The notes beneath the pieces are model-generated. The model had not been told where the DNA came from. It ran no database searches and worked only from the letters and a program-made list of their open reading frames with translations. Of a stretch of 30,336 bases of DNA, positions 923-28,534 are shown in pieces (positions within the stretch are counted from its first letter, which is position 1; each line of letters begins with the position of its first letter). The DNA comes from a virus, in the IMG/VR virus record IMGVR_UViG_3300036770_001964, positions 1 to 30,336 of that record; one strand, 5' to 3'. The translations under genes and the position numbers were made by a program.

Positions 923-996
923 TCACCCGTGGTGCTAATCCAGGAAACACAGTCGGCGAAAGTCGAAAGTTGCGGGTTCAACTCCCGTCGGGTGAA
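923..996 (+). ncRNA. tRNA-like RNA lacking an anticodon arm
   Basis: Read by hand, the sequence folds as a tRNA. The 7-bp acceptor stem TCACCCG (923-929) pairs with CGGGTGA (989-995). The linker TG is followed by a 3-bp D stem GTG/CAC (932-934 with 948-950), whose loop contains GG. The T arm is GCGGG-TTCAACT-CCCGT (972-988) with a consensus T loop; A996 is the discriminator and CCA is not encoded. Between the D and T arms lie only 21 bases. They form TCGGC-GAAA-GTCGA (953-966), a 5-bp hairpin with a GNRA tetraloop, not a 7-base anticodon loop. The D arm resembles type II (Leu-like) tRNAs, so the hairpin may be the variable arm left after clean loss of the anticodon arm. Decoding is therefore unlikely; a decoy, processing signal or decayed tRNA are all possible. 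Confidence 0.6.
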
Positions 997-1030
997 TTGG
1001 GTTTGAATGTAACTTTTTGGAGGTGTGGCG

Positions 1031-1390
1031 ATGGAATACGATTTGAACCAATTATTGCCAGATGAAAGATGTCACGTTGACGGCTCAAACAAAAGGATGG
1101 AGCAGTTTACGGACGAGCATGGCATTGTCTGCCTAAACAGCATTCCGATTGATTTTCACGGGGAAAAGGTTTTCCCTGAAATTACAATGCGATTTGACGT
1201 ACAGCTTGGGTACATTCGGCCAATGATCGCAGATGGAACTGCGGACGTTAAACAGATGGCCGTTGCGATCAGAAAAGCAATCAAGAACGCCATCGATCAG
1301 ACAATTGGCCCATGGCCCTCATATCATGTCCAGATTTGGGATCGCTCTGTAATGTTGCACCGTGAGACTATTGAGTACGATTTTTCTTGA
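1031..1390 (+). CDS. Hypothetical early phage protein
   Basis: This encodes about 119 residues with no recognised family. The frame is open from a GTG at 1025, but the ATG at 1031 was chosen because GGAGG (1019-1023) is seven bases upstream of it. The protein is soluble, mixed alpha/beta in appearance, with a Lys/Ala-rich helix-like stretch around residues 75-92. It is the first gene after the tRNA-like element and is followed after seven bases by a small HTH gene, so it is in the same operon. Confidence 0.65.
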   Translation: MEYDLNQLLPDERCHVDGSNKRMEQFTDEHGIVCLNSIPIDFHGEKVFPEITMRFDVQLGYIRPMIADGTADVKQMAVAIRKAIKNAIDQTIGPWPSYHVQIWDRSVMLHRETIEYDFS

Positions 1391-2434: not shown

Positions 2435-2830
2435 GATTCGATATTGAAGCAGCGGGAATTGGTGGAGCAACGGCTAAGGCAGCCGGACGATATGGGCGAG
2501 ATGGCGTGGGTGTTTCGCGTCTACTCGCTGATAGCGGTGGACGGTGACACCTTTGACGCTGTTCTCGACCTGGGTTTTGGAGTTTGGAAGACTGAGCGAT
2601 TCCGCCTCCTTCGTTGCAACGCTCCAGAGCGAGGACAACCAGGCTGGGCGGCGGCTAAAGAGGCCTTGATTGATGCGATGAAATGGGAGAAGGGAACCTA
2701 TCTCTGGTCACGCAAGACCAAACGCGACAAGTACGGCAGATACCTTGCCGATGTTTGGTTCAGCCAGCGTGAGAAGTGGCTTTCTGACATCATGCTTGCC
2801 AGTGGGCTGGTGGAGGAGTATTTGCCATGA
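2432..2830 (+). CDS. Staphylococcal-nuclease-like (SNase, OB-fold) nuclease
   Basis: This encodes 132 residues, the length of a single SNase domain. The family landmarks are in order: VDGDTF (36-41) with the calcium-binding Asp residues; FRLLRCNAPE (57-66), matching the RLxxxxAPE motif, where Arg58 and Glu66 correspond to catalytic Arg35 and Glu43 of the S. aureus enzyme; and KYGRYL (100-105), where Arg103 corresponds to Arg87. The active site thus looks complete. There is no signal peptide, so it would act inside the cell, for example on host DNA or RNA. The ATG at 2432 is set by the GGAGG five bases upstream. It overlaps the next gene by four bases (ATGA). Confidence 0.85.
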   Translation: MDSILKQRELVEQRLRQPDDMGEMAWVFRVYSLIAVDGDTFDAVLDLGFGVWKTERFRLLRCNAPERGQPGWAAAKEALIDAMKWEKGTYLWSRKTKRDKYGRYLADVWFSQREKWLSDIMLASGLVEEYLP

Positions 2831-3465
2831 AGTTCCTGGTTGATGTATCAGGAGCTAAAGCGGAGCGGATCAAAAATCATCCGCTAATTGCCGGGCAGCT
2901 GCTGACGCCTTTGACCAGATACACCCGATGGGCTGACTGCTTTGCAATCGACAACGGGGCATTCAGTGGGTTTCCAAAAAAAGAGTTTTCCACATTACTG
3001 GAGAGGGAAAAATCCGCCGTTCAAAAGTGCCAGTTTGTCTGTGTTCCTGATGTCGTCGGAAACGCAAGGCGGACACTGGAAATCTGGAAGCGTCGGAATG
3101 ACTTTGTCCGAGGATGGCCGGCGGCGCTTGTAATACAGGACGGAATGGAGGACTTTGAGATACCTTGGAGCGATCTTGCTGCAGTATTTATCGGCGGCAG
3201 AGACCCATGGAAGGATTCGCAGGCGTCGCAGGACATCGTTAAGGCGGCAAAAGTGCTTGGTGTTCACGTTCACATTGGGAGGTGCAACACATTCAAAAGG
3301 TTCAGGCTGTTTCACGATTTGGGAGCGGATACCTGTGATGGTTCAGGCATAGCCATGTATGACCACATGCTGAAAGATATTGAGGAGAAGCTTAAAAAAG
3401 ATGGAGACGCAATTTTACCGGGATTTGGGCAGGAAACCGAGGATCTATCTTGCTGGACCGATTAA
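2827..3465 (+). CDS. TGT/DpdA-like deazapurine base-exchange protein
   Basis: This encodes 212 residues. Queuine tRNA-ribosyltransferases (TGT), and the DpdA proteins derived from them that insert 7-deazaguanines into DNA, are TIM barrels with an early Asp in a DSGGF-type motif, a GG base-binding loop, and a late nucleophilic Asp in a GxDxxD-type motif. Here IDNGAF (41-46, Asp42), VFIGG (120-124) and GADTCDGSG (166-174, Asp171) stand in that order and spacing. The CxCxxC zinc site of tRNA TGTs is absent and the protein is much shorter than bacterial TGT, which favours a phage DpdA-like role on DNA. No preQ0 synthesis genes are visible, so host precursor would be needed. It overlaps the next gene, a nucleoside deoxyribosyltransferase homologue, by 65 bases. 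The family is fairly sure; the DNA substrate is inferred. Confidence 0.7.
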   Translation: MKFLVDVSGAKAERIKNHPLIAGQLLTPLTRYTRWADCFAIDNGAFSGFPKKEFSTLLEREKSAVQKCQFVCVPDVVGNARRTLEIWKRRNDFVRGWPAALVIQDGMEDFEIPWSDLAAVFIGGRDPWKDSQASQDIVKAAKVLGVHVHIGRCNTFKRFRLFHDLGADTCDGSGIAMYDHMLKDIEEKLKKDGDAILPGFGQETEDLSCWTD

Positions 3466-3823: not shown

Positions 3824-4113
3824 GCGACGATCTGTTGCAACGAGCTCGCCAGTGGGCGGATCGGTTCGGACCATCGAATTATTGGACTGGCACATCGGGC
3901 GAAGCAGCAACGATCATCCATCAATTGCTGGAAGTGATCGAGGCGAAGCAGGCGGAGGTTGATAGCTTGACTGTCAGGCTGTCAGGGCAACGGCTAGAGG
4001 GCACGGTAGAGGAGGTAATGATCTATGGGCACACGGTTGGAAGCAGTGACGCCTGCGGAGTACGATGCTGCAAGAAGAAAATTCATGGGCAGTCACAGCC
4101 TGGAGCGGTTTAG
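3820..4113 (+). CDS. Hypothetical small early protein
   Basis: This encodes 97 residues. The ATG at 3820 overlaps the stop of the deoxyribosyltransferase-like gene (ATGA), a coupled arrangement. Residues 1-60 look helical (LLQRARQWADRF, then a heptad-like IHQLLEVIEAKQAEVDSL). The last ~30 residues overlap the next gene in another frame and are unusually rich in Cys, Gly and Lys, so they may be poorly constrained. No family is recognised. Confidence 0.55.
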   Translation: MSDDLLQRARQWADRFGPSNYWTGTSGEAATIIHQLLEVIEAKQAEVDSLTVRLSGQRLEGTVEEVMIYGHTVGSSDACGVRCCKKKIHGQSQPGAV

Positions 4114-4840: not shown

Positions 4841-5592
4841 TGGAATTGTATTCGACGAGAGTAATCAAGCCGCGACGAACATTTCTATACGGTGTGGGCA
4901 AAATCGGAAAGTCAACGTTTTGCAGCGAGGCTCCAGGTGTAGTGTTCATCCAGACTGAGGACGGCCTTGCTAACATCGATGCAGTCACGTTTGGCCTGTG
5001 TACCGATCCCGAACAGGTGTTCGACCAGATCGGCCAACTGCGAACGCAGGAACACCAGTTCCAAAACTTGGCAATCGATTCGGTTGATTGGTTTGAGAAG
5101 CTTGTCCATGAACGCATCTGCCAGGAGGCTAGCGTCTCCAGCCTAATCGATATGGGGCACGGGCGAGGCTACACGATGGCCCAAGGTTGGTTCAACAGGC
5201 TAACCAGGGAGCTAGACGCACTGATTGCTGAGCGTGGCATGGGTGTGTTTCTGATCGCTCACGCTGAGCCGGTGCGATTCGAGGATCCCGACACCGCAAG
5301 CTATGACCGCTGGCAACCGAAGCTTGCCAACTTGGTCGTCAAACACTTACGGGAATGGTGCGATGAAATCTTCTTTGCTTGCGAAAAAGTCGCGGTCAAG
5401 AAGGAAGAGGGGAAAATGGGGCGAGAGGTCGCAAAGGCTGTCCGTGCAGGCGGACGGATCCTCAGGACCACTCCGAAGCCGTCAGCAATGGCGGGCAACA
5501 GGCTGAAAGGGATCCCGGAAGAGATCCCATTGAGCTATGCGGAATATGCAAAGTATCTACCACAGAACCAGGAGGTGACTAAGAATGGCTGA
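4840..5592 (+). CDS. Sak4-like RecA-fold ATPase (AAA_24), single-strand annealing/recombination
   Basis: This encodes 250 residues. Walker A is GVGKIGKST (18-26), Walker B is NLAID (76-80, Asp80), and FLIAH (137-141) supplies a likely sensor histidine. This is the minimal RecA-core layout of Sak4 proteins, which anneal single strands during phage recombination, usually with an SSB-like partner. The ATG at 4840 overlaps the nuclease stop. Downstream, within its own 3' end, lies GGAGG (5571-5575) for the DUF669-like gene. A frame extension upstream of 4840 is shadow of the nuclease gene. Confidence 0.85.
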   Translation: MELYSTRVIKPRRTFLYGVGKIGKSTFCSEAPGVVFIQTEDGLANIDAVTFGLCTDPEQVFDQIGQLRTQEHQFQNLAIDSVDWFEKLVHERICQEASVSSLIDMGHGRGYTMAQGWFNRLTRELDALIAERGMGVFLIAHAEPVRFEDPDTASYDRWQPKLANLVVKHLREWCDEIFFACEKVAVKKEEGKMGREVAKAVRAGGRILRTTPKPSAMAGNRLKGIPEEIPLSYAEYAKYLPQNQEVTKNG

Positions 5593-26378: not shown

Positions 26379-28534
26379 AGGTAGTCAACGCTCCCCCTGT
26401 GTCGCTTCCGTGGTGCTTCCTGCCGTGGCTGGTGGGTGGCTGGTGGCTGATCGCCTGTTGTCACCTGTGGCATCTGTGCTGCTGATCTACGTCGCTTCGG
26501 TCCCGCGTCGCTGGGCAATCTACAGCCCTCCACCGAGGCGGCAACGCAGCACCCTACTAGGCAGTCAAGCCAGTGGTTGTCAGGCCGATCTGCTTTGATC
26601 TTCCATTCATCAACCGTTCTGCCGCGTCCCTCAGTTCTCACTGGGTACTCTGCTCTAAGGTGCTTGGCAATCGTCTCATGCTCGATCCCGCTCGCCTGGT
26701 ACAGCGTCAGGCTGCCAGGCGTACCTGGTTCGGTTGACAACCTGGAATGAAGAAAGCTCTTCCACCAGTTGGCATCGAAAAGAACGTGACGGATCGGGCT
26801 GTCCTTCGCTCGATCTACTCGCCAATGCTGACCTACTGCCCTACCAAGCCTGCGGGTGTGGTTCGCGTTCAGTGGCTCATTTGATGCACCGATCCCCTTG
26901 CCGTGCGATGGGTAGATCGATCCCTTATGAGTTGATCGCTGGCAATGCTGGTAGACGATGTTTCTCGATAGTCCCCAGTTGGCATCGATAAGCATGCGAT
27001 TGATTGCCAGTTCTAACCCGTCCTCAGTCTTCCAGATTCGGCTAAATAGATCCTTTTCGATTGCTGCCAATGCTTTGGCAATCTTGGATTCCAGTGACTC
27101 GCCAGGGAACTGCTTTGTGAAATTGTTCCGCACACCCGACATTCTGAAATTCGTTGTTCGCTGATTCGGCCAGGCTCCGTACTCGATGACAGTCCCTGTC
27201 ATATCGTGACGCCAGGCTGTCACAGCGTAGAAAAGGATCTCCTGCTGGACGTCCACCATTGCGACAAGCTTGCTGGTGTTCGCTGGTGCGATCCCCTTGG
27301 GTGTATGGCCCATCCGCTTAGCAAGTGCAGTCTCGCTCAGGATCGTATCATCCGCCCGAAGTTCCATCGGCTGATTTTGATACTCCGCGAAGAACGCTCC
27401 TTCATCGCGGAAGTAGAGGTTCATCGCGTTTTGAATCGCTGAAATTTCGTCCTCGTTGTACCGATCCGGCCAGGCTGCTCTGGCTCCCTTGTCCATCTCC
27501 TCCTGGTTGTCACGATAGAACTGCGCCGCCTCCTCGGTGTCCGTTCCGTTGCGGAAGCACGCTTCCCGGATCTCCTGGTACCGCTGCCAAAGGTCCATCT
27601 TCTCCGGCATACCGTAGAGCAGTTGAGTCCTCTCGCCGTGCCACTCAGGTGACACCTGACGATCTAAAGACTGATCCGCCATGTCTCCACGCTGGATTAC
27701 AGTGCACGGCATCACACCAGCGATCTTAACCCCAGGACCAGCGAGGCCCAAAATATCTCCGTTGACGATCGCTAGCCGGTCATCGTTCTGCGTGCCACTC
27801 TTAGCAGACTCCCGCGTCTGCGGGTCATCCAGGATCACATAATCAGGGCGGATAACCTCCCCGTCGGGCGTAGTCTCCTGCTGCCCACGAATATCTCCAG
27901 TGATACCACAGACTGATACCAGCGAGCCAGATGACTTGCTACCCTCGATCGTTGGCAGCATCAGGTTATCAGCCAGCCATCTTATCGCGGTGCTCTTGCC
28001 TCGGTATGTCTGCGAGTTGGCACGGGCGGGCTTGCCATCAAGCTTGATGATCGGATAACAGACTTCCGGGAAATCAGCGAGCAACAGCGGATTGAAACGA
28101 AGTTCCGAGCGGATCCCGTTCAAAAGCTTCTGGGCCTTTGGTTCCGTTGCACCAACCAAGCACACCCAGCGGCGATAACCACAGAGCAGAGCCCACGTAG
28201 CGGCGGTGATGGCGATCGTTGTTTTACCCGAACCGCGCGGCATCGCCATTGCAAACAGACCACCGTTTTTAACGGTGGTTTCGATCCGCTCCAGCACTCT
28301 GATATGGTCATCAGACCACCCTAGGTGGAACGCTGCTGGACGGTAAATCTCGCAGTAAGCTTGCAGGCTGTCAGTCGCCTCCTGCCTCCGAACGGGATCG
28401 GCAACAGGCGGAATCTCCCCGATGTCCGCAGCAGCCCGAGCACTCTCCCGAGCACGCTCGCCAGCCTTCTCCCGATGAACGCGGTATTGCTCGGCGAGCT
28501 TAGCTTTGCGGTCATCTTTATTCATCGTCGCCAT
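26375..28534 (-). CDS. Terminase large subunit
   Basis: This encodes 719 residues. The ATPase half has Walker A MPRGSGKT (98-105) and Walker B YVILDDP (232-238). The nuclease half has acidic sites in MVDVQQE (about 428-434), LIDANWG and HWLDCLVG near the C-terminus, as in the GpA/packaging nucleases. A charged, helical N-terminal ~50 residues precede the motor. The C-terminus ends in a basic tail with zinc-free PRQEAPRKRHRGS. It pumps DNA through the portal. The start may be Met1 at 28534 or Met4 at 28525. No small terminase gene is seen next to it. Confidence 0.93.
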   Translation of the reverse strand: MATMNKDDRKAKLAEQYRVHREKAGERARESARAAADIGEIPPVADPVRRQEATDSLQAYCEIYRPAAFHLGWSDDHIRVLERIETTVKNGGLFAMAMPRGSGKTTIAITAATWALLCGYRRWVCLVGATEPKAQKLLNGIRSELRFNPLLLADFPEVCYPIIKLDGKPARANSQTYRGKSTAIRWLADNLMLPTIEGSKSSGSLVSVCGITGDIRGQQETTPDGEVIRPDYVILDDPQTRESAKSGTQNDDRLAIVNGDILGLAGPGVKIAGVMPCTVIQRGDMADQSLDRQVSPEWHGERTQLLYGMPEKMDLWQRYQEIREACFRNGTDTEEAAQFYRDNQEEMDKGARAAWPDRYNEDEISAIQNAMNLYFRDEGAFFAEYQNQPMELRADDTILSETALAKRMGHTPKGIAPANTSKLVAMVDVQQEILFYAVTAWRHDMTGTVIEYGAWPNQRTTNFRMSGVRNNFTKQFPGESLESKIAKALAAIEKDLFSRIWKTEDGLELAINRMLIDANWGLSRNIVYQHCQRSTHKGSIYPSHGKGIGASNEPLNANHTRRLGRAVGQHWRVDRAKDSPIRHVLFDANWWKSFLHSRLSTEPGTPGSLTLYQASGIEHETIAKHLRAEYPVRTEGRGRTVDEWKIKADRPDNHWLDCLVGCCVAASVEGCRLPSDAGPKRRRSAAQMPQVTTGDQPPATHQPRQEAPRKRHRGSVDYL

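Follow-up and report, generated by a model that had tools for sequence, protein, structure and literature searches.

Anticodon-less tRNA-like elements in the early operons of related phages as candidate RNA processing signals

Sequence comparison and folding demonstrate a tRNA-like structure at positions 923 to 996 of a 30,336-base phage record (IMG/VR IMGVR_UViG_3300036770_001964; the window, analyzed at its full length) and a wider family to which it belongs. About ten related or mosaic phage contigs carry some 17 further elements in their early operons, in every case between genes and on the coding strand. We lean toward reading the element as a signal, derived from a tRNA, for RNA processing in an early polycistronic transcript, with cleavage suggested by the retained structure and by analogy with known substrates. 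It is quite possible, although we say so tentatively, that rapidly diversifying anticodon-less tRNAs and natural minihelices punctuate the early operon and that host RNase P and RNase Z cut the message at them, as in mitochondria, for which tRNA punctuation is textbook knowledge.

The initial annotation had described a 7-bp acceptor stem, D and T arms, and a 5-bp hairpin with a GAAA loop, together filling a 111-base gap between genes. All of these parts were recovered (Table 1), the D arm with only 3 bp, and the gap runs from the upstream stop codon (917 to 919) to the downstream ATG at 1031. The predicted minimum-energy fold of 923 to 996 (−25.8 kcal/mol, z = −2.2) contains the acceptor, the hairpin, and the T arm and leaves out the D arm, which is the weak part of the modeled structure. 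Like a tRNA, the element has a 7-bp acceptor and a 5-bp T arm with a TTCRANN loop; the 5-bp anticodon stem with a 7-nt loop is missing, the loop being GAAA (4 nt), and there is no anticodon. A strict descriptor requiring such an acceptor and T arm, applied to both strands, matches the window only at 923 to 996, compared with 0.0 matches per simulated window of the same composition. The view that such an RNA could not decode also stands: ARAGORN called no tRNA gene anywhere in the window, the Rfam tRNA model (RF00005) reaches 15.5 bits at 925 to 993, under its 29-bit cut-off, and a conventional fold with a 7-base anticodon loop, which was looked for, is not predicted. An ordinary tRNA was rejected on these grounds.

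Table 1. Positions and sequences of the window element, its flanks, its class A homologues, and the other element classes
Feature	Position	Strand	Sequence or length	Basis or remark
Upstream gene, 140 aa	497–919	+		Stop ends 3 nt before element
tRNA-like element, class A	923–996	+	TCACCCG-TG-GTG-(loop with GG)-CAC-AG-TCGGC-GAAA-GTCGA-AAGTT-GCGGG-TTCAACT-CCCGT-CGGGTGA-A	Direct reading, fold, descriptor scan, homologues
Acceptor 5′ strand	923–929	+	TCACCCG	7/7 pairs with 989–995
D arm	932–950	+	Stem GTG (932–934)/CAC (948–950); loop GG (943–944)	
Hairpin assigned to anticodon-arm slot	953–966	+	TCGGC (953–957)-GAAA-GTCGA (962–966)	Homologue pairing, Infernal placement
Variable region, 5 nt	967–971	+	AAGTT	Homologues keep AAG(T/C)T
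T arm	972–988	+	GCGGG-TTCAACT-CCCGT	One G-U pair
Acceptor 3′ strand and discriminator-like base	989–996	+	CGGGTGA (989–995), A996	No CCA
Leader for gene at 1031	997–1030	+	Starts TTGG; Shine-Dalgarno GGAGG (1019–1023)	
Downstream gene, 119 aa from ATG 1031	1031–1390	+		
Class A homologue	L010:612–684			
Class A homologue	L013:3768–3841			
Class A homologue	L002 ~4891–4967			
Class A homologue	L015 ~3876–3948			
Class B			RGGTCGG/CCGACCT; total 46, 64, 75, 96, 99, 117, 130 nt	
Class C			GGATCGG/CCGATCC; 117 nt	
Class D			GGGGATG/CATCCCC; 103 nt	Textbook D arm
Class E			CGAGACT/AGGCTCG	6/7 paired
Class F			GTGCCCG/CGGGTGC	GCGA-type tetraloop hairpin CTGGA/TCCAG, CTGAA/TTCAG
Class H			GCCCCTG/CAGGGGT	

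Other candidate identities were rejected as well. The only hit to a known Rfam family at 923 to 997, a weak one to Plastid-ycf2, scores 22 bits against a cut-off of 66, the antisense hit being the reverse complement of the tRNA-like T arm; a tmRNA-like domain lacks its G3-U70 pair in the window element; and a terminator lacks its T run, with 0 terminator-like sites within positions 1 to 1500. Searching named phages with the element region (BLASTN) returned short matches only, several of them to tRNA genes.

Close relatives of the phage were gathered via the downstream gene, the helicase, and Sak4. The initial annotation had tied its reading to covarying homologues in related phages, and these are present, with the hairpin pairing kept through double changes. 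The class A hairpin (TCAGC-CGAG-GCTGA in L010, TCAGC-CTCG-GCTGA in L015, TCGGGC-GATC-GCTCGA in L002) varies in its loop and keeps its stem: all 20 cells are paired in the four distinct sequences, and two of the five pairs have changes on both sides. The D stem is paired in all four and is invariant. One homologue (L010) was called tRNA-??? with a 2-nt “anticodon.”

The order within class A is D arm, position 26, hairpin, AAG(T/C)T, and T arm. We assign the hairpin to the anticodon-arm position, and not to that of the variable arm, because an Infernal alignment of the L010 homologue sets it in the anticodon stem, a class I variable region of 5 nt comes after it, and the D-arm region of class A matches that of tRNA-Gln(UUG). 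The suggestion of a type II variable arm, remaining after precise removal of the anticodon arm, was therefore dropped, since the hairpin follows position 26 and precedes the 5-nt variable region. As judged from these alignments, class A is laid out like a class I tRNA, except that its anticodon loop is down to four bases. When IMG/VR was scanned with a relaxed version of the class A pattern, the matches were ordinary tRNAs, mostly tRNA-Gln(UUG) genes, plus elements already found. The tRNA-Gln(UUG) genes and class A have in common CCCGTGGTGTAAT..GG..AACACA and the placement of the T arm, whereas class A lacks the 7-nt anticodon loop, the anticodon, and the CCA. The ancestor of class A is most likely tRNA-Gln(UUG), and the anticodon loop would have collapsed to GAAA from a form of that kind.

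Across the relatives, the strict descriptor found 10 elements in five related phages, all in the early region and on the coding strand (expected number, 0.00 to 0.04 per sequence). A T-arm scan of nine assembled records (~270 kb) likewise gave matches that lie nearly all in early regions and all on the coding strand, and a wider inventory takes in G021, G022, L068, L069, L072, and L164. The stretch from acceptor to T arm ranges from 14 nt, in a bare minihelix, to 98 nt, and an anticodon arm is never present. The minihelix is the 46-nt class B member at L031:4372–4417, which reads GGGTCGG-CTCATTGGAGTTTA-GCGGG-TTCAAAT-CCCGC-CCGACCT. Four relatives exceed the cut-off of the Rfam tRNA model (39 to 48 bits), with the anticodon region skipped or replaced. 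The family keeps the top half of a tRNA, with the acceptor stacked on the T arm and often a D-arm-like hairpin; the anticodon region is in some members reduced to a tetraloop hairpin, in others exchanged for 30 to 100 nt of different structure, and in others nearly gone.

The pairing within the family is evidence that selection has kept the tRNA top half. Acceptor and T-stem cells are paired in 163 of 168 cases across 14 elements, although the sequences are related and the cells are not independent events. The seven acceptor families match their own partner strands over 7, 7, 7, 7, 7, 7, and 6 pairs, respectively; when strands are swapped between families, the mean falls to 3.6. The 7-nt 5′ acceptor strand of class B stays complementary over replaced linkers of 14 to 98 nt. 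Class F has a GC-to-CG switch in the D stem and a GNRA-type tetraloop hairpin that is 100% paired, and its copy in L164 has wobble-preserving acceptor changes (GTATCCG versus CGGGTGC). When columns were shuffled in each of these two classes (A and F, four sequences each), between 53 and 89 of 500 shuffles reached the observed covariation scores. Because four-sequence shuffles are too weak alone, the argument for selection rests on the across-family comparison and the linker contrast.

A serious rival to the processing signal, which we judge unlikely while giving it appreciable weight, is that the elements are decaying remnants of real ancestral tRNA genes that, having lost their use, are drifting and tolerate insertions and deletions in the anticodon region. 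The resemblance of class A to tRNA-Gln and the ordinary tRNA D arm of class D fit this explanation, as do the L002 class A copy (only 9 of 12 acceptor and T-stem pairs), a chimeric element in L068 (10 of 12), and the T-arm halves without acceptors that are all that precedes several genes. These same copies, together with the altered acceptor of the L015 class A copy, weaken the case for a processing role. Drift, however, should hit the stems as it does the linkers, and the nearly complete pairing of stem cells, the complementarity of the 5′ acceptor strand across linkers of very different length, and the hairpins that stay paired through double changes all argue against it. Moreover, the seven different acceptors would each require a separate recent tRNA, and no intact tRNA was found in the phage group carrying the elements. 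The idea of a tRNA remnant, already raised in the initial annotation, consequently suits the L002 copy, the L068 chimera, and the T-arm halves, which do look like remnants, and is at odds with a family whose stems still pair.

In the chimeric element (L068 9853–9968), the 5′ half (GGATCGG) is of class C and the 3′ half (CGGGTGC) of class F, with 5 of 7 acceptor pairs. It stands upstream of a class F type gene and, from the sequences of its halves, is evidence of recombination within the T arm. The chimera also bears on a second explanation, by which the T-arm/acceptor repeats act mainly as points of homologous or site-specific recombination at which small early genes are swapped, and identical 27-nt T-arm/acceptor copies do precede different small genes. 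We regard this account as improbable, because recombination needs sequence identity and not a complementary 5′ acceptor strand, and the seven acceptors differ. Furthermore, a tyrosine integrase (PF00589) is absent from 13 phage records, and the 25-nt class B T-half is absent from 294 genomes of the Planctomycetota, the presumed host phylum, at ≤2 mismatches. These two absences were also the grounds for rejecting an attachment site in a tRNA 3′ end.

Several regularities were seen around the small early genes of the relatives. Genes for small predicted membrane proteins ending in PPTVE (35 to 54% identical; L002 4669–4884, L002 1731–1922, L013 94–282, L055 12918–13106, L058 11014–11190) are mostly preceded by a class C, F, or H element, with none directly upstream of the L069 copy. 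Imperfect inverted repeats, such as TATAACGCTTGGGTTCATCGAGCCGCC...GGCGGCTTCGATGCAACCCATTGTTC, flank small early genes at L015 ~1640–1760 (G012 27415–27500), L049 1905–2040 and 3490–3590, and L013 ~1450–1560; they resemble integron attC sites or the ends of cassettes, with core sites that are not canonical. The sequence AACAAGCGTTATACAG recurs just before T-arm halves.

From gene order, we infer that the element and its flanking genes share one transcript. The stop codon ends 3 to 8 nt ahead of the acceptor in 10 of 20 cases, and elements often lie 34 to 44 nt before a start codon. That most early genes of the window have no such element counts against the processing reading. Despite their different acceptors, classes A, C, and F have alike leaders from position 74, which start with TTGG (or CTGG) at or beside the element end and reach the start codon after 34 to 39 nt. 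We favor a processing signal because a minimal RNase P substrate is kept, a stop codon often lies closely upstream, and a shared leader follows. RNase P RNA of Escherichia coli cuts synthetic hairpins made of acceptor stem, T stem, and T loop alone, and RNase P acts on phage RNAs and on polycistronic mRNAs (PMC11143913). Similarly, mascRNA, which has a compact loop where a tRNA has its anticodon loop, matures through RNase P and RNase Z, which recognize its elbow (PMC11693755). In the phage, host RNase P would recognize the acceptor/T domain and cut 5′ of the acceptor, at a predicted site between 922 and 923, and RNase Z, or exonucleases, would cut after the discriminator, between 996 and 997. 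The operon would thereby yield separate mRNAs, with the conserved leader at the start of each downstream one, and the tRNA-like piece released would be a side product unable to decode. Among the functions that had been offered for the element, that of a processing punctuation mark fits best, with the cleavage itself an expectation drawn from structure.

No element encodes a CCA, and many bacterial RNase P enzymes prefer a 3′ CCA, which counts against a processing role. However, tRNA genes sampled from three planctomycete metagenome-assembled genomes are mostly without an encoded CCA, and for that reason we do not take the missing CCA as an objection. The host is likely a planctomycete or a related bacterium, as suggested by terminase relatives that come mainly from Planctomycetota and Victivallaceae genomes (most at 41 to 48% identity). 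Among named phages, only an Akkermansia phage has a relative of the major capsid protein, and a search of bacterial genomes with this protein, as a prophage route to the host, gave no match. In two planctomycete assemblies, dense runs of tRNA genes (G027 contig C32 ~16.6–22 kb; G026 contig C115 ~57.7–59.8 kb) resemble tRNA arrays or a phage tRNA cluster.

The phage record itself encodes a Sak4-like annealing protein, a helicase, a PriCT primase, and a terminase; its positions 2827 to 3462 encode a phage protein that matches PHROG 15826 (E = 2e−30) and has no Pfam match. The final 126 bases of another phage contig, of 17 kb (IMGVR_UViG_3300035670_001812; L051/L055), overlap positions 1 to 126 of the window. 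Because this second contig carries a diverged Sak4, helicase, and primase of its own, the overlap is more like the end of an assembly graph at a shared module than like one genome.

The excised RNA might instead act in trans as a stable tRNA mimic that binds PNPase (as YrlA does), EF-Tu, RNase P, or a defense nuclease. The element is structured, tRNA-shaped, probably made early, and present in several copies per genome, and the bacterial Y RNA YrlA, which mimics a tRNA by its D, T, and acceptor arms and likewise lacks a decoding arm, can tether PNPase (PMC8394870). We nevertheless expect little from this explanation: the diversity outside the acceptor/T domain speaks against a single protein partner, the gene-leader position and tight packing suit a cis role better, and the Ro60/TROVE protein (PF05731) is absent from 13 phage records. 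YrlA, moreover, has an Rsr-bound basal stem, whereas the phage element has neither such a stem nor such a protein, and a YrlA-type Y RNA was rejected accordingly. The suggested decoy for anticodon nucleases is also unlikely, since the element has no anticodon to cut.

Processing elements derived from tRNAs are already known, and a processing role for the phage elements would be new in its occurrence in phages and in its unusual structural range; no description of such a phage element family was found in the open-access papers searched. If the processing reading holds, the same punctuation solution evolved in phage operons, which would provide natural examples of a minimal RNase P substrate and explain why tRNA-like sequences of phage genomes are called “undetermined” or are missed. 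With the element, its predicted cut sites, and natural variants graded from 46 to 130 nt available, a direct test is possible.

That non-decoding tRNA mimics can mark cuts is known from plant mitochondrial t-elements and from mascRNA (PMC8003010, PMC11693755). The t-elements, cleavage marks recognized by endonucleases, resemble the phage elements in being tRNA-like non-tRNAs between the genes of polycistronic transcripts (PMC8003010). The phage elements differ in belonging to bacterial DNA phages, in numbering several distinct ones per early operon, and in that their cleavage is predicted; we claim no common descent. The mascRNA and menRNA that form the 3′ ends of the MALAT1 and MEN-beta transcripts share with the window element an acceptor, a T arm, a small D arm, and, in place of the anticodon region, a stem with a compact loop (PMC11693755). 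This likeness is one of architecture and not of homology, as they serve 3′-end formation of human nuclear long noncoding RNAs, whereas the phage elements are intergenic leaders, some of them minihelices or with long inserts. The model RNase P substrates of McClain and Altman (described in PMC11143913) come near the design of the L031 minihelix, with its 7-bp acceptor, 5-bp T arm, and 14-nt linker; the latter is natural, lacks the CCA preferred by E. coli RNase P, and is a candidate substrate. Finally, M3 RNA, C4 antisense RNA, and T4 gene 32 mRNA are phage transcripts cut by host RNase P (PMC11143913), but these are single RNAs, whereas the elements described here form a tRNA-derived family repeated along the operon.
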